A program made the position numbers and the translations under genes. Below are positions 2,629 through 62,257 of a stretch of DNA of 64,000 nt, one piece after another. Positions within the stretch are counted from its first letter, which is position 1, and every line of letters starts with the position of its first letter. Below the pieces are notes generated by a model. The model was not told the origin of the DNA and did no database searches. It saw only the letters and a list, made by a program, of their open reading frames with translations. The stretch is from Pseudomonas sp. PD9R (GTDB lineage: Bacteria > Pseudomonadota > Gammaproteobacteria > Pseudomonadales > Pseudomonadaceae), in contig NZ_JAHTMR010000005.1 in NCBI RefSeq assembly GCF_019200975.1, positions 62,001-126,000 of the forward strand, given 5' to 3'.

Positions 2629-4408
2629 CTGCGTTAATCCACTCTTTCACGACCTGAGCCACACGACCCGGGTCTTCTGCCACCAGACTCTTGATTGCAT
2701 TCAACTGAGCGTCATAGCCTTCGCTCGGGCTCGGCAGCAGGATGCTTTGGGGACCGCCGAGGCTCACGCGGTCGTTGGCCAGTTCGCCATCCAGGCCGCC
2801 CATGCCACCCAACTCGACGTCGCTGCCGATGCCGGCCAGCTGCTTGCCTTTGCCGCCACCGGTGATGTTGTTGAGCACCGGACGCAGCACACCGAACACC
2901 AGCACCAGGATGAACAAGACGCCCAGCACTTGCTTGACGATGTCCCAGAACCAAGGCTGGGAGTAGAACGGAATATCGGCGATCACTTCACCGCGCTCGG
3001 CGGAGAACGGCATGTTGATCACGCTGACGCTGTCACCGCGGCTGGCATCGAAACCGACCGCGTCCTGTACCAGACGAGTGAAGCGCGCCAATTCATCGGC
3101 GCTCCATGGCGCGCGGGTCATTTCACCGTTGGCCGCGTTGATCTTGACCTGGTCATCCACCACGACCGACACCGACAGGCGATTCAATCGGCCCTGCTGT
3201 TGCTTGGTGTGGCTGATGGAACGATCGAGTTCGAAGTTCTTGGTGGATTGTTGACGCTTGTCCGCCGGGTACGGCGCCAGCATCGGCTGACCGGTGGCCG
3301 GGTCCATGATTTGCTGACCGTTGGCGTCCAGCAATGGCTGGCCCGGCTGCACCATGCCGGCCGACGCAGTGGCGCCACCCGTGGTTTGCGGCGCGGACGC
3401 CGGCGAAGGTGGCTGGTTGCTCAGGGCACCCGGCACACCTTGCGGGCCATTGCTGGCGGTACGCTGTTCGTTGACTGACTGCTCGCTGCGCAACGCCGGT
3501 TGATCCGGGTTGAACTGCTCGGAGGTCGATTCGACGGCGCTGAAATCGACATCGGCCGAGACTTCGGCTTTGTAGCGATCGTTGCCCAGCACCGGTTGCA
3601 AAATGTTGTGCACGCGCTGGGTGAGCATGCTTTCCATGCGGCGGCTGTAATCGAATTGCTTGCCGGCCATGGTCAGTTCGGAGTTTTCCGCCTGATCGGA
3701 GAGCAGGTTGCCCTTCTGGTCGACGACGGTGATCTGCGATTTGCTGAGTTCAGGAACACTGGTGGCGACCAGGTTGATGATTGCCACGACCTGACCCGGC
3801 TCCAGCGAGCGACCGGAATAAAGCTCTACCAGAACCGATGCACTTGGTTTGCGCTCGTCGCGCACGAACACCGAACTCTTCGGAATCGCCAGGTGCACGC
3901 GGGCGCCCTTGACGTTGTTCAGCGCGGAGATGGTCCGAGCCAGTTCGCCTTCAAGGCCACGACGGTAGCGGGTTGCTTCCATGAACTGGCTGGTGCCCAG
4001 GCCTTGCTCTTTATCAAGGATTTCAAAACCGATGTTGCCATCGCTGGGAGTGACACCAGCAGCCGCGAGCTTCAGTCGCGCACGGGAAAGGTCATCGGCC
4101 TTGACCAGCAAGGCTCCGGAATTGGGTTCAACGGTATAAGGGATATCGGCGGAAGCCAGGGTATCCATCACCTGTTTGGCGTCCATACCGGCAAGGCTGC
4201 CGTACAGAGGCCGGTAGTCCGGCTGCTGGGACCACAACACCACGGCAAAACCAATCGCCACGCTCGCAGCCAGGCCGACCAGCAGGCCCACCTGACGCAA
4301 CATGGTCATCTCGGAAAGGTTTTCCAGGAAGGACAAGCCGAACAGCGGCGGTTTGCCGTCTATCGGTGTGGCCTTGGCCGGAACATTATCGGCGACTGCT
4401 TCTGCCAT
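2621..4408 (-). CDS. fliF: Flagellar MS-ring protein FliF
   Basis: Inner-membrane MS-ring protein on which the basal body is built. It has 595 residues, with a first membrane helix at about residues 39-59. A large periplasmic ring-building domain follows, including a low-complexity Pro/Ala/Gln-rich linker around residues 310-370. A second membrane helix lies near residues 485-508, and a cytoplasmic tail binds FliG. Gene order fliE-fliF-fliG is canonical; fliE ends 15 bp upstream. Confidence 0.97.
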   Translation of the reverse strand: MAEAVADNVPAKATPIDGKPPLFGLSFLENLSEMTMLRQVGLLVGLAASVAIGFAVVLWSQQPDYRPLYGSLAGMDAKQVMDTLASADIPYTVEPNSGALLVKADDLSRARLKLAAAGVTPSDGNIGFEILDKEQGLGTSQFMEATRYRRGLEGELARTISALNNVKGARVHLAIPKSSVFVRDERKPSASVLVELYSGRSLEPGQVVAIINLVATSVPELSKSQITVVDQKGNLLSDQAENSELTMAGKQFDYSRRMESMLTQRVHNILQPVLGNDRYKAEVSADVDFSAVESTSEQFNPDQPALRSEQSVNEQRTASNGPQGVPGALSNQPPSPASAPQTTGGATASAGMVQPGQPLLDANGQQIMDPATGQPMLAPYPADKRQQSTKNFELDRSISHTKQQQGRLNRLSVSVVVDDQVKINAANGEMTRAPWSADELARFTRLVQDAVGFDASRGDSVSVINMPFSAERGEVIADIPFYSQPWFWDIVKQVLGVLFILVLVFGVLRPVLNNITGGGKGKQLAGIGSDVELGGMGGLDGELANDRVSLGGPQSILLPSPSEGYDAQLNAIKSLVAEDPGRVAQVVKEWINADE

Positions 4409-4423
4409 GACTCAATCTCGTCC

Positions 4424-4753
4424 TTAAACCGGCATCTGCATGATGTCTTGGTAAGCCTGAACCAGCTTGTTACGCACTTGGGTCAATGCTTGAAAAGACA
4501 CACTGGCCTTTTGCGAAGAAACCATCACGTCCGTCAGGTCGACGCCGCTCTTGCCAATCTCGAAGGCATTGGCCAACTGACTGGAAGCCTGCTGGGTGTC
4601 GTTCACTTTATTGACGGCCTGACCGAGCATGTCGGAAAAGCTGCTGCCACTCATTTCAGGGACTGCGGCAGTCGACTTCGACGCAGACATGGCATCCATT
4701 TGCATGGAGCGCATGTCCAGCATCAACCGATTGAATTCAATACCTTGGCTCAT
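4424..4753 (-). CDS. fliE: Flagellar hook-basal body protein FliE
   Basis: Adaptor between the MS-ring and the rod, exported early. The product is 109 residues, all-helical, and ends in the conserved hydrophobic tail ([15 protein letters not shown]). It is the first gene of the fliEFGHI transcript. A sigma-54 promoter lies about 60 bp upstream of the ATG at 4753, with a possible FleQ site between them. The length is typical. Confidence 0.96.
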
Positions 4754-4989: not shown

Positions 4990-6381
4990 TCAGGTGGCGA
5001 ACAGATAAGCTTCCACGTCCATTCCGGCATCACGCATCTGTGCCAGCTTGTAACGCAAGGTGCGCGGACTGATGCCCAGACGCTCGGCAGCCTCTTTGCG
5101 ACGACCGCGTTCGGTGCGCAAAGTGTCGATGATCAACTGGAACTCGCGGCGACGCAGGTCATCACCCAGCGCCCCGCCAGACTCTGTTTCAACGTCTACC
5201 GCCCGGACAAACGTCGGCACTGGCGCCAGGGTCGGCAATGGTGCGCAGGCGACCGGCCCGGCCAGACAGAAATCCTGAGGCTGAATCAAGCCACCCTGCT
5301 GCAGGATCAGCGCGCGCTGAATGGCGTTGTCCAGCTCACGCACATTGCCGGGCCACGAGTAACCGATCAGGCAGGCCTGCGCCTCGGGCGACATGCGCGC
5401 GGCGGCGTGTTTCATTTTATTGACGTGCTTGGTCAGCAGACGCTCAGCCAGCGGCAAAATGTCGGCGGTGCGTTCGCGCAACGGACGCCAGGCCAGCGGA
5501 AACACCGACAGGCGATAGTAAAGGTCTTCGCGAAACCGCCCTGCCGCCACTTCCCCGGCCAAGTCACGGTTAGTAGTCGCGACGACGCGAATATCCAGCG
5601 TGATCGGCTTGCGCGCACCTACGCGCTCCACCTCGCGCTCTTGCAGCACACGCAGCAATTTGGCTTGAAGACCGAGGGGCATTTCGGAAATTTCGTCGAG
5701 CAAGATAGTGCCGCCATCGGCCTGTTCGAACTTGCCCGCCTGCGCCGCAATGGCACCGGTGAACGAGCCTTTTTCGTGGCCGAACAACGTCGCCTCCAGC
5801 ATGTTGTCCGGGATCGCCGCGCAGTTGATCGCAATGAACGGCTGGCTGGCACGATGGGAGTGCCGGTGAATGTAGCGTGCCAATACTTCCTTGCCCGTCC
5901 CGGACTCACCGGAGATCAGCACGGTGGAGTCACTGCGGGCGACCCGCGCCGCCAGTTCGAGCAGTTGCGCGCTGGCCGGCTCGAACGCGACCGGTCCTTC
6001 ACTCTCGGATGCGCCAAGTGTGCCCAGGGCATGGCGAGCGACCAGATCGAGCAAAGCCTTGGGCTCGAACGGCTTGACCAGATAATCCGCCGCCCCCTGA
6101 CGCATCGCATCGACCGCCCGCTCCACCGCACCGTGCGCCGTCATCAGCAACACCGGCAATTGCGGTTGACGCGCCCGCAGCAGGCCAAGCAATTGATGAC
6201 CGTCCATGCCCGGCATGTTGACGTCACTGAGCACCAGATTGAATGCCTCGGCGCTGACGACAGCCAGCGCCTCTTCTGCCGAAGCAACGGCCTTGTAATC
6301 GTGCCCGGCGAGCAACAGCGTGTCAGCCAGCGCTTCACGCAATGCGCGGTCATCCTCGACCAGTAAAACCTTGATGCTCAT
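4990..6381 (-). CDS. fleR: Sigma-54-dependent flagellar response regulator FleR
   Basis: Response regulator that activates RpoN-dependent mid-class flagellar genes (for example flgF onward) after phosphorylation by FleS. The ATG at 6381 is chosen over an upstream in-frame codon because it gives the standard receiver start MSIKVLLVEDD and has GGAG upstream. The 463 residues comprise a receiver with phospho-acceptor Asp53, an AAA+ domain with Walker A GESGTGKE, a GSFTGA sigma-54 contact loop (Ser in place of the more common Ala), and a Fis-type helix-turn-helix at the C-terminus. It starts 5 bp after the fleS stop. Confidence 0.95.
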   Translation of the reverse strand: MSIKVLLVEDDRALREALADTLLLAGHDYKAVASAEEALAVVSAEAFNLVLSDVNMPGMDGHQLLGLLRARQPQLPVLLMTAHGAVERAVDAMRQGAADYLVKPFEPKALLDLVARHALGTLGASESEGPVAFEPASAQLLELAARVARSDSTVLISGESGTGKEVLARYIHRHSHRASQPFIAINCAAIPDNMLEATLFGHEKGSFTGAIAAQAGKFEQADGGTILLDEISEMPLGLQAKLLRVLQEREVERVGARKPITLDIRVVATTNRDLAGEVAAGRFREDLYYRLSVFPLAWRPLRERTADILPLAERLLTKHVNKMKHAAARMSPEAQACLIGYSWPGNVRELDNAIQRALILQQGGLIQPQDFCLAGPVACAPLPTLAPVPTFVRAVDVETESGGALGDDLRRREFQLIIDTLRTERGRRKEAAERLGISPRTLRYKLAQMRDAGMDVEAYLFAT

Positions 6382-6386
6382 GACCT

Positions 6387-7598
6387 TCACTCCGCTCCCT
6401 GAGCGCTGCTGAACAACGGCAAAATCACCTGCGCGCACGTTCCGCGACCAAGCCGCGAGCGCAACTGCAGTTCACCCTGATGGGCTCGCGCAACCGCCTT
6501 GACCACGGTCAGCCCGAGTCCGGTTCCAGTGGATTTGGTGGTAAAAAAAGGCTCGCCCAAACGCGCCAGCACGGCACTCTCGATGCCACTGCCGCTGTCG
6601 CTTACACACAGGTGCAAGCTGTTTTCACGCGTATACAGATGGACCTTCAAGCGAACGTTCGCGCCGCTGGCCTGAACAGCGTTTTCGATAAGATTGAGAA
6701 TGGCCCCGACCAGTGTGTCGCGACTGCACAGCAATTCGCCGGCATGACTGTCGCACTGCCAACGGATCGGCAAGTCCTGCACGTGGGTCAGCGCGGCCGC
6801 TTGCAATGACTGCATCAGTTGCTTGGGAGTTACGCGATCGGTCAACGGCAACTCGCCGCGCGCAAACACCAGCATGTCGCGCACCTGATGCTCCAGCTCA
6901 TGCAGGCGCTCCTTGAGGCGCCCGGCGAAACGTTGCTGAGTTTCGACCGGCAACGCTTGCTCGGTCAAATGACTGGCGTAGAGCAACGCGGCAGACAGCG
7001 GCGTACGAATCTGATGAGCCAGGGACGCGACCATCCGGCCCAGGGACGACAGACGTTCATGACGGGCCAATTGATCTTGCAGATGACGGGTTTCAGTCAG
7101 GTCGGTGAGCAGCACCAGTTGCCCGGGCTCAGCGTCCAGCGATCGCGTGGCAATCGACAGACGCCGACCGTCCTTGAGGGAAACTTCATGACCGTCATCA
7201 TCGCGAGGTGCAAAGCAGCGGGCAATGACCTGTCGCCACAGCTCGCCTTCAAGGGGCAGACCGAGCAACTCGCACGCCGCCGGGTTGGCTTCGCGCACGA
7301 TGCCCTGGGCGTCGATAACGATGACGCCACCGGGCAACAGGTCGAGAAGATTTTGCAGACGGTTGGCCAGACGTTCTTTTTCCGCCAGTTCCTGCATGCG
7401 CTGGGCGCTGACGACCGCCAACTCGCCCTTAAGCTCGGTGACCCGGGCTTCGAGCATGCTGTACGAGTCGGTCAACTGGCTCGACATCTGGTTGAACAGG
7501 GCAAACGCCTGCTCCAGGCCAAGCCGGCTCGCCTGCTCTACGGACGACGGTTGCCCCAGGGAGTCAGGGACAGGAGACATCTGGGCGGCTTGGGGCAT
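6387..7598 (-). CDS. fleS: Flagellar sensor histidine kinase FleS
   Basis: Cytoplasmic sensor kinase partner of FleR. It has 403 residues and no membrane helix. A coiled N-terminal segment is followed by a PAS domain (about residues 75-180), a HisKA helix with the H-box HQIRTP near residue 210, and a HATPase domain with N-box NLIENAVQ, then DSGSGI and GTGLGL boxes. It forms an operon with fleR and is read from a sigma-54 promoter at 7653-7667. FleSR control of later flagellar genes is known from P. aeruginosa. Confidence 0.95.
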   Translation of the reverse strand: MPQAAQMSPVPDSLGQPSSVEQASRLGLEQAFALFNQMSSQLTDSYSMLEARVTELKGELAVVSAQRMQELAEKERLANRLQNLLDLLPGGVIVIDAQGIVREANPAACELLGLPLEGELWRQVIARCFAPRDDDGHEVSLKDGRRLSIATRSLDAEPGQLVLLTDLTETRHLQDQLARHERLSSLGRMVASLAHQIRTPLSAALLYASHLTEQALPVETQQRFAGRLKERLHELEHQVRDMLVFARGELPLTDRVTPKQLMQSLQAAALTHVQDLPIRWQCDSHAGELLCSRDTLVGAILNLIENAVQASGANVRLKVHLYTRENSLHLCVSDSGSGIESAVLARLGEPFFTTKSTGTGLGLTVVKAVARAHQGELQLRSRLGRGTCAQVILPLFSSAQGAE

Positions 7599-38827: not shown

Positions 38828-39619
38828 ATGAAGCAGACGCAATACGTGGCTCGCGAGCCCGATGCGCAAGGTTTTATCGACTACACCGCCGAAGAGCACG
38901 CGGTGTGGAACACGCTGATCACTCGCCAACTGAAAGTGATCGAAGGGCGTGCGTGCCAGGAATACCTGGACGGTATCGAAAAACTCGGTCTGCCCCACGA
39001 CCGCATTCCACAACTGGGCGAGATCAATAGGGTCCTCGGTGAAACCACCGGCTGGCAGGTCGCCCGGGTGCCCGCGCTGATCCCCTTCCAGACATTTTTC
39101 GAATTGCTCGCCAACAAGCAGTTTCCGGTGGCAACGTTTATTCGTACCCGCGAAGAGCTGGATTACTTGCAAGAGCCGGACATTTTCCACGAGATCTTCG
39201 GCCACTGTCCGCTGCTGACCAACCCCTGGTTCGCCGAATTCACCCACACCTACGGCAAACTTGGCCTACAGGCTTCCAAGGAAGAACGCGTCTACCTGGC
39301 GCGTCTGTACTGGATGACCATCGAGTTCGGCCTGGTGCAAACCCCGCAAGGCCGACGCATCTACGGTGGCGGCATTCTGTCCTCACCAAAAGAAACCGTT
39401 TACAGCCTGTCGGACGAACCTGAGCATCAGGCCTTCGACCCACTGGAATGCATGCGCACGCCGTACCGCATCGACATATTGCAGCCGCTGTACTTCGTCC
39501 TGCCGGACCTCAAGCGCCTGTTCGATCTCGCCCACGAAGACATCATGGGCATGGTCAAGCAAGGCATGCAGATGGGGTTGCACGCACCGAAATTTCCGCC
39601 GAAGCCAAAAGCGGCGTGA
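38828..39619 (+). CDS. phhA: Phenylalanine-4-hydroxylase PhhA
   Basis: Pterin-dependent iron monooxygenase that converts phenylalanine to tyrosine. The 263 residues are the catalytic core only, as in other bacterial enzymes. The iron ligands are visible: His121 and His126 in DIFHEIFGHCP, and Glu166 in YWMTIEFGLV. It is first in phhABC; CAGGAG precedes the ATG. Confidence 0.97.
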   Translation: MKQTQYVAREPDAQGFIDYTAEEHAVWNTLITRQLKVIEGRACQEYLDGIEKLGLPHDRIPQLGEINRVLGETTGWQVARVPALIPFQTFFELLANKQFPVATFIRTREELDYLQEPDIFHEIFGHCPLLTNPWFAEFTHTYGKLGLQASKEERVYLARLYWMTIEFGLVQTPQGRRIYGGGILSSPKETVYSLSDEPEHQAFDPLECMRTPYRIDILQPLYFVLPDLKRLFDLAHEDIMGMVKQGMQMGLHAPKFPPKPKAA

Positions 39620-45492: not shown

Positions 45493-46908
45493 CTACTTCG
45501 CGCTGGCAGCCTGCAATGCATGCTGCGCACTGCGCTTGTTCTTGATGCCGTAGCAGACCCACATGAACACGACCCACACCGGAATCGCGTACACCGAGAT
45601 CTGGATCCCCGGAATCAACAGCATCACACACAGGATAAATGCCACGAACGCCAGGCAGATGTAGTTCCCGTACGGATACCACAGGGCCTTGAACAGCGGC
45701 GTCTGTTTGGTTTTGTTCATGTGCTGGCGGAATTTGAAGTGCGAGAAACTGATCATTGCCCAGTTGATCACCAGGGTCGCCACGACCAGCGACATCAGCA
45801 GTTCCAGCGCGTTTTGCGGGATCAGGTAGTTCAGCAGCACCGCGATCAGTGTCACGGCAGCCGAAGCCAGGATCGAACGCACCGGCACGCCACGCTTGTC
45901 GATCTTCGCCAGAGCCTTCGGTGCATCGCCCTGCTCGGCCATGCCCAGCAGCATGCGGCTGTTGCAGTAGGTGCCGCTGTTGTACACCGACAATGCCGCG
46001 GTCAGGACCACGAAGTTGAGGATGTGCGCGGCGGTGTTGCTGCCCAGCATCGAGAACACTTGCACGAACGGGCTACCGCTGTAGGAATCGCCGGAAGCGT
46101 TCAGGGTTGCCAGCAGGCTGTCCCATGGCGTCAGCGACAGCAGAATCACCAAGGCACCGATGTAGAAAATCAGAATCCGGTAGATCACCTGATTGATGGC
46201 TTTCGGGATCACGGTTTTCGGCTTGTCGGCTTCAGCGGCGGTGAAACCGAGCATTTCCAGGCCGCCGAAGGAGAACATGATGATCGCCATGGCCATCACC
46301 AGACCGCTGACTCCGTTCGGGAAGAAGCCGCCGTGGGACCACAGGTTGCTCACCGCCGCTTGCGGGCCGCCGTGACCGCTGACCAGCAGATAGCTGCCCA
46401 GGGCAATCATGCCGACGATTGCTACGACTTTAATGATCGCGAACCAGAACTCGGCCTCACCAAAGACTTTGACGTTGGCCAGGTTGATCGCGTTGATCAG
46501 TACGAAGAAGGCAGCCGCCGAGGCCCACGTCGGGATGTCCGGCGCCCAGTAGTGGATGTATTTGCCGACTGCGGTCAGCTCAGACATGCCCACTAATATG
46601 TACAGAATCCAACAGTTCCAGCCCGACAGGAAACCGGCGAAACCGCCCCAGTATTTGTGGGCGAAGTGGCTGAAGGAACCGGCCACCGGCTCTTCTACGA
46701 TCATTTCGCCCAGTTGGCGCATGATCATGAAGGCAATGAAGCCGCAAATGGCATAGCCGAGGATCATCGACGGTCCGGCGGATTTCAGGACCCCGGCCGA
46801 GCCGAGGAACAAACCGGTACCAATCGCGCCACCGAGGGCAATCAATTGAATGTGGCGATTTTTCAGGCCGCGTTTCAGCTCGCCTGAATGCGAGTTTTGT
46901 CCACTCAT
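45493..46908 (-). CDS. aroP2: Aromatic amino acid permease AroP2
   Basis: APC-family amino acid:proton symporter of 471 residues from ATG at 46908, with 12 predicted membrane helices. The N-terminal LKNRHIQLIALGGAIGTGLFLGS and the EEPVAGSFSHFA segments place it in the AroP/GabP/CycA group. In P. aeruginosa the orthologous neighbourhood (PA0866 next to the phh genes) is named aroP2, which supports aromatic amino acids as substrates. A 20-codon leader ORF precedes it. Confidence 0.88.
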   Translation of the reverse strand: MSGQNSHSGELKRGLKNRHIQLIALGGAIGTGLFLGSAGVLKSAGPSMILGYAICGFIAFMIMRQLGEMIVEEPVAGSFSHFAHKYWGGFAGFLSGWNCWILYILVGMSELTAVGKYIHYWAPDIPTWASAAAFFVLINAINLANVKVFGEAEFWFAIIKVVAIVGMIALGSYLLVSGHGGPQAAVSNLWSHGGFFPNGVSGLVMAMAIIMFSFGGLEMLGFTAAEADKPKTVIPKAINQVIYRILIFYIGALVILLSLTPWDSLLATLNASGDSYSGSPFVQVFSMLGSNTAAHILNFVVLTAALSVYNSGTYCNSRMLLGMAEQGDAPKALAKIDKRGVPVRSILASAAVTLIAVLLNYLIPQNALELLMSLVVATLVINWAMISFSHFKFRQHMNKTKQTPLFKALWYPYGNYICLAFVAFILCVMLLIPGIQISVYAIPVWVVFMWVCYGIKNKRSAQHALQAASAK

Positions 46909-46925
46909 GAAAAGGGTCTCACGCA

Positions 46926-46990
46926 AGGTTTGATGATGTTCAGTAGACGTTGCTGCTCAGCAAAGGCGTTAAGCGGCACCGATCAAACCC
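46926..46990 (-). promoter_or_regulatory. Candidate leader RNA switch of aroP2
   Basis: GGTTTGAT, inside the leader ORF right after its second Trp codon (minus strand, 46982-46989), is exactly complementary to ATCAAACC, 19-26 nt upstream of the aroP2 start codon (46927-46934). Between them is a TTGCTGAGCAGCAA hairpin. Ribosome position on the leader would decide whether the long-range pairing forms. This is inference from sequence alone. Confidence 0.45.
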
Positions 46991-47031
46991 CAGCGCAGGC
47001 ACCAGGAGTTCAGCGTATTTACAACGGTCAT
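46969..47031 (-). CDS. 20-codon leader ORF upstream of aroP2
   Basis: ATG at 47031 follows ACAGGTGACGC, a good ribosome binding site. The peptide starts MTVVNTLNSW and has Trp at residues 10 and 14, a high density for a rare residue, with Cys and Arg between. It stops with TAA 60 bp before aroP2. Location, length and Trp content fit a regulatory leader peptide for an aromatic amino acid transporter. Confidence 0.55.
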   Translation of the reverse strand: MTVVNTLNSWCLRWGLIGAA

Positions 47032-47198
47032 GCGTCACCTGTTTGTTTTTATCTGTGACGAAATCGAACCCGACACGCTCGTGACGCGGCGGAGTGAACA
47101 AGACGGGTAGCCTTGAGGTTTGCGCAGATGCGCAGGAGGTCACAGGTAAAACGCGGCGCATTGTACACCGCTAACCCCCTGCTGCCAGACCCGCTGGA

Positions 47199-47345
47199 TC
47201 AGCGCGTCGGTTGCCGGGATTGCCTGTGTCCGCCGCGAACGATTCGGGCGGCTGCAAAAAGGGACTCAGACCTTTGCGGGTCATGGACGGGGACGGCGAA
47301 AAACTCGCCTTTTGCTGCGAGGTGAAAATGGATTGCGGCGTTCAT
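47199..47345 (-). CDS. Candidate 48-residue small protein with strong ribosome binding site
   Basis: ATG at 47345 follows AAAAAGGAGGCGCA, a near-perfect Shine-Dalgarno. The peptide begins MNAAIHFHLAAKGEFFAVPV and ends in an Arg-rich tail. No family is recognised. A 7-bp inverted repeat (47360-47366 and 47389-47395) sits just before the Shine-Dalgarno in the predicted 5' UTR. Confidence 0.55.
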   Translation of the reverse strand: MNAAIHFHLAAKGEFFAVPVHDPQRSESLFAAARIVRGGHRQSRQPTR

Positions 47346-61453: not shown

Positions 61454-62257
61454 TCACGCCAACTCCGCAACCTTCGCCATCTCCCGCGCCTGTGCATCCG
61501 CCAATCGATACAACTCGATCGTGCCATCCCAATGCTCGATCAGCGCCGTGCACGACTCCACCCAATCCCCACAATTGAGGTAATCCACCTCACCCACCTT
61601 GCGAATCTCGGCATGGTGAATGTGCCCGCAGACCACGCCATGCAATTCGCGTTTGACGCATTCATGGGCGATGGCTTCTTCGAAGTCGCTAATGAAGCTG
61701 ACCGCGGTTTTCACCTTGTGCTTGAGGTAGGCCGACAGCGACCAGTAGCCGTAGCCATAACGGGCGCGCCAATGGTTCAGCCAGCGGTTGAGGGTCAGGG
61801 TGAATTCGTAGGCTGAGTCGCCGAGAAACGCCAGCCAGCGGTGGTAGCGGGTAATCACGTCGAACTGATCGCCGTGAATCACCAGCAGATGGCGACCATC
61901 GGCGGTCACGTGCACGGCTTCGTCGACTAACTGGATATTGCCCAGAATCAGCTTCGAATAGCGGCGCAGGAATTCGTCGTGGTTGCCGGTGACGTAGATC
62001 ACCTCGGTGCCGCGCTTGCTCATGGTCAACAGGCGCCGGATCACATTGGTGTGAGCCTGCGGCCAGTACATGCCACCGCGCAGTTTCCAGCCGTCGATGA
62101 TGTCGCCGACCAGATAGATTTTGTCCGCGTGGTAACCCTTGAGGAATTGCGACAGGTGCTCGGCCTGGCAATCACGCGTGCCCAGATGCACGTCGGATAT
62201 CCATAGGGTCCGCACACGTTGCTTACGGCTGGGTTTGGCGAGCTCGGCGCTGGTCAT
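61454..62257 (-). CDS. LpxH-like metallophosphoesterase
   Basis: Calcineurin-type phosphoesterase of 267 residues from ATG at 62257, with GAGGG upstream. The metal-binding motifs are complete: DVHLG, GDIIDGW, GNHDE, HGDQFD and GHIHHAEIR. It resembles UDP-2,3-diacylglucosamine diphosphatase, but is longer than canonical LpxH and is likely a second, related enzyme. The substrate is therefore uncertain. Confidence 0.88.
   Translation of the reverse strand: MTSAELAKPSRKQRVRTLWISDVHLGTRDCQAEHLSQFLKGYHADKIYLVGDIIDGWKLRGGMYWPQAHTNVIRRLLTMSKRGTEVIYVTGNHDEFLRRYSKLILGNIQLVDEAVHVTADGRHLLVIHGDQFDVITRYHRWLAFLGDSAYEFTLTLNRWLNHWRARYGYGYWSLSAYLKHKVKTAVSFISDFEEAIAHECVKRELHGVVCGHIHHAEIRKVGEVDYLNCGDWVESCTALIEHWDGTIELYRLADAQAREMAKVAELA

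Follow-up and report, generated by a model that had tools for sequence, protein, structure and literature searches.

A 20-codon transporter gene remnant upstream of aroP in Pseudomonas and its possible role in catabolite control

In attenuators of the trpL type, a short open reading frame (ORF) with Trp codons precedes an amino acid-related gene, together with a stem that a halted ribosome can block. How leader peptides arise is little understood.

In Pseudomonas putida, cbrX is a small conserved ORF under a putative Hfq/Crc site upstream of cbrA, and the part of PMC6591292 that deals with it describes its translation as needed for cbrA and its peptide sequence as not needed. In Pseudomonas aeruginosa, Crc regulation of an aroP2'-'lacZ fusion depended on a CA motif close to the start of aroP2, according to a section of PMC3480352. 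A table of PMC3003667 places AroP2 (PP_4495) of P. putida among the genes changed in a crc mutant, with a value of 2.6, and identifies phhA as PP_4490. Here, we analyzed the region upstream of aroP in a 64,000-nucleotide stretch of Pseudomonas sp. PD9R DNA (the window; positions 62,001 to 126,000 of NZ_JAHTMR010000005.1) and compared it with related loci across the genus.

Layout of the region upstream of aroP

The features of the control region, all on the minus strand of the window, are as follows.

45493..46908, minus strand: aroP (aroP2), aromatic amino acid permease (Pfam/NCBIfam matches; phhA nearby)
46917..46922, minus strand: weak Shine-Dalgarno (SD)-like site, GTGAGA, that belongs to aroP and overlaps with the 3' stem arm at the end of that arm (sequence; duplex energy)
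46969..47031, minus strand: leader ORF of 20 codons, by homology what remains of an NSS/SNF transporter gene at its 5' end (homology and selection)
47035..47040, minus strand: SD sequence of the leader, AGGTGA (sequence; common to NSS genes; duplex energy)
47043..47050, minus strand: CA motif AAAAACAA (AANAANAA) at the leader ribosome-binding site (RBS), a putative Hfq/Crc site (sequence)
47160..47188, minus strand: promoter-like site CTGGCA-17-TACAAT (consensus match only)

The aroP product belongs to Pfam AA_permease, and its top NCBIfam match is AroP, under the cut-off of that model. Because phhA lies approximately 7 kb away (38828-39514), in the pattern of PP_4490 and PP_4495 in P. putida, the name aroP2 is reasonable. 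The leader ORF encodes MTVVNTLNSWCLRWGLIGAA and ends with TAA; its ATG follows AGGTGA after a gap of 3 nt, and 60 nt separate its stop codon from the aroP ATG (A at 46908). The initial annotation had described a 20-codon ORF with an RBS and Trp at residues 10 and 14, 60 nt before aroP, and two complementary arms, GGTTTGAT directly after codon 14 and ATCAAACC at 19-26 nt before the aroP ATG; all of these elements are present in the sequence. The CA motif and the homology of the leader to a full-length gene were absent from that annotation.

The promoter-like site was found once, with 0.7 expected by shuffling. No intrinsic terminator was reported inside 46908-47031. Searches with the Rfam 15 covariance models gave no match in the window at the gathering score and none in 46850-47250 up to E=5, and a known RNA family was rejected on this basis.

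Origin and distribution of the leader ORF

When 181 bases surrounding the leader were used as a DNA query, 121 of the 149 genus genomes matched, that of the window among them, and loci from 110 of the 121 matching genomes (30 + 80 loci) were examined. Sixty-two loci carried the leader followed by aroP, in 26 the CA motif and RBS adjoined aroP directly or were fused to it, 15 were NSS loci, three had a 13-codon leader whose stop overlapped the aroP ATG, and four had no recognized CA/RBS pattern. An aroP start was at hand in 95 of the 110 loci. In the 15 loci where it was absent, the leader frame continued as a transporter, which spanned a 486-residue protein in all seven loci with wider flanks (residues 1-486 in six, 4-484 in one) and corresponded to Pfam SNF (PF00209). 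A second search found a match to the NSS gene start at ≥445 bits in 29 of 398 genus genomes. A second sample, the 118 named stretches with the shared UTR among the matches listed, comprised 85 leader loci, 7 direct or fused loci, 4 short-overlap loci (12-13 codons), 21 NSS loci and one leader at the end of its contig, where no aroP was visible. The 62 leader loci of the genus-genome search and the 85 among the matches listed give the 147 leader loci used below. The initial annotation had named a lack of conservation in close relatives as refuting its reading; the leader ORF is kept in many species, and named carriers include P. frederiksbergensis, P. mandelii, P. lurida, P. orientalis, P. chlororaphis, P. 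fragi, P. lundensis and P. psychrophila.

The UTR, CA motif, RBS, start codon and leader codons align without gaps to the 5' ends of intact NSS genes. Compared with 15 NSS genes, the window leader was identical at a mean of 39.0 of 60 nt, whereas 20,000 codon-shuffled leaders averaged 17.8 with a maximum of 33. The leaders of loci L050 (36.8) and L065 (39.0) also exceeded their homology null; the homology of the diverged leaders L094 and L070 was not above it. The window's own genome contained no NSS orthologue, only a 48% identical relative elsewhere. The leader is thus not a purpose-built ORF: it consists of the surviving first 20 codons of an NSS gene, and both of its Trp codons are ancestral codons of that gene.

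In other Pseudomonas, intact NSS/SNF (PF00209) genes lie behind maiA with a homologous UTR, CA motif, RBS and first 20 codons. Unlike at those loci, only 20 codons are left here, before an unrelated AA_permease gene and with rluB upstream. Among the matches listed, the nearest query gene upstream was maiA in 19 of 21 NSS loci (none in 2 of 21). For the 85 leader loci it was rluB in 66, and the remaining 19 had no query gene in the flank, L182 despite a flank of 4.7 kb. None of the 21 named NSS loci among these matches had an intact NSS gene beside rluB. The remnant may have formed at the maiA locus and then moved, or it may have arisen beside rluB. One contig labelled as a Pseudotabrizicola MAG (L161) carried a Pseudomonas-type maiA-NSS locus, which is probably a binning error.

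Other loci differed in how aroP and the control region were joined. In L148 and L235, aroP lies behind maiA and starts with MTRETQHAGQ..., the first four codons of the NSS gene being seemingly fused to aroP, so that aroP would here have taken the place of the NSS gene independently and come under its control region. L133 (genome G123) had tandem aroP-like genes (3221-4612 and 5040-6398) behind hmgA-fahA-maiA. In L064, an upstream deletion left the leader and removed the CA motif; in L072, the leader start was lost by an upstream deletion, and weakened arms remain beside the promoter-like site. In L069, L071, L073, L162, L170, L208 and L244, an identical internal deletion removed both stem arms and left a leader of 12-13 codons, its stop codon overlapping the ATG of aroP by 4 nt, or by 1 nt in L170. 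These deletion forms were scattered on the aroP tree, by recurrent deletion or recombination.

In the aroP tree (166 aroP starts of at most 420 nt each, with weak nodes), leader-less forms appeared at several places within leader-bearing clades, and the short-overlap form has several positions, which may come from recurrence, from recombination or from an error in the tree. Leader length also varied, from 20 to 38 codons. The L067 leader was frameshifted and lacked Trp, its longer ORF ending on the aroP ATG. An N-terminal extension of aroP, or read-through into it, was rejected because the ATG-to-ATG distance was not kept in one frame (remainders 0/1/2 in 38/9/15 of 62 and 56/18/11 of 85 leader loci).

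Selection on the leader and conservation of the stem

A leader tree was built from 124 loci, the 147 minus duplicates and short-flank loci. On this tree, aroP codon positions 1, 2 and 3 (codon 13 on) showed means of 0.67, 0.15 and 11.4 changes per site. Leader codons 7, 9, 13, 15 and 16 changed 1-3 times each and the 17-base block TCAAACCTTGCGTGAGA five times in all, so that the leader core and this block evolved much more slowly than aroP third positions; the 13 sites after the leader stop changed 9-17 times each, and the spacer evolved about as fast as those positions. The leader had approximately 4.8-fold fewer changes than aroP third positions.

For the codon alignment, 118 loci were used, and L049, L067, L070, L094, L098 and L197 were set aside because of indels or frame. 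Leader codons 2-17 accumulated 114 substitutions without a single stop codon, compared with 6.0 expected from that many substitutions (probability of none, 0.002), 3.7 expected when the changes per codon are fixed, and 28.8 if neutral. Synonymous changes numbered 42 versus 31.6 expected (p 0.02). Translation of the leader ORF, and selection on it, are thus very likely.

All 11 changes at Leu12 were synonymous, and only one amino acid change occurred at residues 13-16 across the 118 loci. This pattern would suit an effect of the nascent peptide, in which Leu12-Arg-Trp-Gly-Leu16 pauses the ribosome from within the exit tunnel, with or without a ligand, and the stem is held open. However, residues 13-16 also form part of the stem, so peptide and RNA constraint are inseparable there; moreover, the Leu12-Leu16 segment was inherited from the transporter, and leaders differ in their C-terminus and in where they stop (20 to 38 codons). 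We regard a nascent-peptide effect as distinctly improbable.

The RNA elements, all on the minus strand of the window, are as follows.

46982..46996, minus strand: 5' arm of the stem, GCGCTGGGGTTTGAT, leader codons 12-17 (folding, covariation, RNAalifold)
46921..46934, minus strand: 3' arm of the stem, ATCAAACCTTGCGT (folding, covariation, RNAalifold)
46972..46977, minus strand: 5' half of a weak inner hairpin, GCCGCT, with a C-A mismatch in the window's own clade (folding)
46952..46957, minus strand: 3' half of the inner hairpin, AGCAGC (folding)

Single-sequence folds and RNAalifold on 78 sequences gave a full stem of 14 bp, GCGC-U-GGGGTTTGAT with ATCAAACCTTGCGT, which exceeds the 8-bp pairing first described and whose 3' arm extends into the SD-like site of aroP; some single sequences showed other best folds. 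A single sequence proves little here, because an exact 8-nt complement between ORF and spacer arose in 103 of 5000 dinucleotide shuffles of the window sequence and the folding z-scores of that sequence were near zero (0.27 and -0.16). Across loci, the 7-nt cores GGTTTGA and TCAAACC were both exact in 58 of 62 and 83 of 85 leader loci, i.e., in 141 of 147, the exceptions being L048, L070, L094, L098, L160 and L197. These comparisons indicate that the pairing of the arms across species is beyond chance. In the clade of L094, L098 and L197, the leader is longer, at 33 codons (15-nt insertion), and has an eroded 5' arm; if these loci have a switch, it must be a different one.

Twelve of the 14 stem pairs were invariant in the 78 sequences and hence gave no covariation signal; since this alignment was restricted to leaders of ≤22 codons with CGC[CT]GGGGTTTGA, the invariance of the 5' arm is partly due to the selection of rows. 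The loop-adjacent pair varied. Among the 118 loci with both anchors, a leader T had the partner A in 92 of 92, and in the clade with a leader G the partner was A in 16, C in 6 and T in 4. The freely varying pair therefore co-varies, with changes that restore pairing; the initial annotation had set covariation of the arms as a check. The partner changed seven times in the G clade (branch length 0.99) and never elsewhere (3.80), in no case to G. Five of seven neighboring control columns were also faster per branch length in the G clade (3/3, 3/3, 3/3, 3/0 and 4/1 changes, G clade/elsewhere; the remaining two 0/6 and 0/2), and relaxed evolution of this clade may be part of the pair change.

In structure shuffles, which leave the relatedness of the sequences in place, none of 500 reached the covariation score or the percentage paired and one reached the number of cells changed on both sides, whereas 283 and 202 of 500 reached the numbers of pairs changed on both sides and of pair types. 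The covariation score was 0.049, compared with at most 0.037 in six slid versions. The consensus fold of all 103 distinct leader regions was weak (-2.75 kcal/mol) because divergent leaders do not align. Support for the inner hairpin is moderate, with 92.5% of cells paired and a mean z-score of -1.39 over 79 distinct sequences (approximately 0 in the window sequence).

The leader could also be a plain fossil, a stub without function for aroP, with the 3' block conserved for the translation start of aroP itself. It is a gene remnant that has been lost through different deletions, L079 and L088 keep the 3' block without a leader or 5' arm, and the single-sequence z-scores near zero point the same way. 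However, the lack of stop codons, the approximately 4.8-fold deficit of changes and the pairing-restoring changes in the stem argue against this explanation and make it improbable.

Catabolite coupling and the tryptophan codons

Every one of the 147 leader loci had the CA motif at the leader RBS, which is due in part to how the searches were built, and none had it within -60..+20 of the aroP ATG; each of the 33 direct or fused loci had it right at the start of aroP. The SD duplex energy in the window was -2.8 kcal/mol for aroP versus -3.8 kcal/mol for the leader (means over the 147 leader loci, -2.9 versus -3.8 kcal/mol), and it was -4.4 kcal/mol in the 33 direct or fused aroP loci.

We put the probability at about one half that a gene remnant has been exapted here as a leader, and that its translation opens the stem and transfers Hfq/Crc control to aroP. 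This reading draws on the NSS homology, the selection on the ORF, the conservation of the stem with a pairing-restoring change, and a CA motif at the leader but not at the aroP start. The Crc control of aroP2 in P. aeruginosa and the crc-mutant entry for PP_4495 also speak for it, and cbrX-cbrA offers a precedent. The 5' control region of an NSS gene (CA motif, RBS and start codon) would have landed before aroP as the rest of the gene was lost, and the stub would then have been retained as a short upstream ORF. Its codons 12-17 would serve as the 5' arm, with the 3' arm reaching into the weak SD-like site of aroP. We infer that ribosomes initiating at the inherited site would traverse the ORF and melt an otherwise inhibitory stem, allowing aroP translation; if Hfq/Crc bound here and blocked the leader RBS, the stem would stay closed and aroP would remain low. 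The stub would in this way pass carbon catabolite control to a start codon approximately 120 nt away.

For a CA motif approximately 120 nt upstream to act on aroP, translation of the leader must matter to aroP, and since 60 nt is long for termination-reinitiation (as stated in a part of PMC10666635), the coupling must run through the stem. Some derived forms, in which the leader stop lies on the aroP ATG (seven loci and L067), were counted for coupling; 4 of the 95 aroP loci, which lack the CA/RBS pattern, and the 3' block alone in L079 and L088 were counted against it.

The initial annotation had read the region as a potential leader-peptide switch driven by its Trp codons. Part of this is supported, namely a conserved, selected ORF and a conserved, switch-like stem; the Trp codons as its design point are not supported, being inherited and, in the case of Trp10, sometimes lost. 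Trp14 was kept in 117 of the 118 aligned loci and Trp10 in 110, with replacement by Phe (5), Arg (2) or Gly (1) in the other eight. Among all 147 leaders, 130 had two Trp, 16 had one and one had none.

The placement of a ribosome was modelled on 20 sequences with an assumed footprint. At codon 14, the ribosome removed the stem, because of the assumed footprint; at codon 10, it left the arm uncovered, and the stem probability rose in 14 of 20 sequences and fell in 6. The proposal that a Trp-stalled ribosome covers the upstream arm consequently fits the model at codon 14 and fails at codon 10. The mean modelled opening cost of the aroP start region fell from 7.9 to 6.5 kcal/mol with the ribosome at codon 14 and 6.4 kcal/mol at the stop, and it was 8.5 kcal/mol at codon 10. 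This modelled gain in accessibility is modest, and it was irregular in L047, L049 and L067.

In a Trp-responsive switch, ribosomes short of charged tRNA-Trp would halt on the Trp codons and cover the 5' arm, turning aroP on. The retention of Trp14 and Trp10, the modelled removal of the stem from codon 14 and the target, an aromatic amino acid transporter, are in keeping with such a switch. However, both Trp codons come from the NSS gene, Trp10 has given way to Phe, Arg or Gly, the codon-10 model runs in the opposite direction, Leu7, Ser9, Arg13, Gly15 and Leu16 change no more than Trp14 and less than Trp10, and the direct and fused aroP lineages do without such a leader. We therefore consider a Trp-responsive switch unlikely, and catabolite coupling, rather than tryptophan, is the best reading of the main theme. 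Since Trp14 is kept and is sited where a halted ribosome would open the stem, sensing by this single codon may occur, although it is not needed. In a combined form, which we rate as unlikely, the truncated NSS start would have kept catabolite control and gained the stem, and the inherited LRWGL with Trp14 would pause the ribosome as a sensor of Trp or aromatic supply; one 20-codon remnant would then join carbon and amino acid signals.

If correct, exaptation of the remnant for catabolite coupling would explain how catabolite control could reach a gene without a CA motif at its own start. The intact ancestor gene, the remnant, the fusions and the losses are all extant in Pseudomonas, so that the way in which a decaying gene gives rise to a regulatory ORF can be traced and tested. 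The locus also advises caution: a leader ORF rich in a single amino acid may be the stub of a gene, with codons that it inherited and that were not selected as sensors. In the literature searched, with subscription journals mostly outside the search, we recognized no description of a leader peptide or gene remnant before aroP.

Among known systems, trpL-type attenuators resemble this locus in having a short ORF that contains Trp codons, as well as a stem whose formation a halted ribosome could prevent. Unlike in those attenuators, the Trp codons here are inherited and have three codons between them, the stem ends at a translation start site, and no intrinsic terminator is reported in 46908-47031. 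In P. aeruginosa, the same named transporter gene, aroP2, stands under a CA motif, as seen in the section of PMC3480352 cited above; there, the motif is near the aroP2 start, whereas here it is at the leader approximately 120 nt upstream. The nearest documented arrangement is cbrX-cbrA, which, as far as the cited part of PMC6591292 goes, combines a small conserved ORF with a putative Hfq/Crc site as proposed here. However, cbrX overlaps cbrA by 17 nt, whereas in the present locus 60 nt and a stem lie between the two ORFs, the upstream ORF is the remnant of another gene, and the coupling is a proposal.
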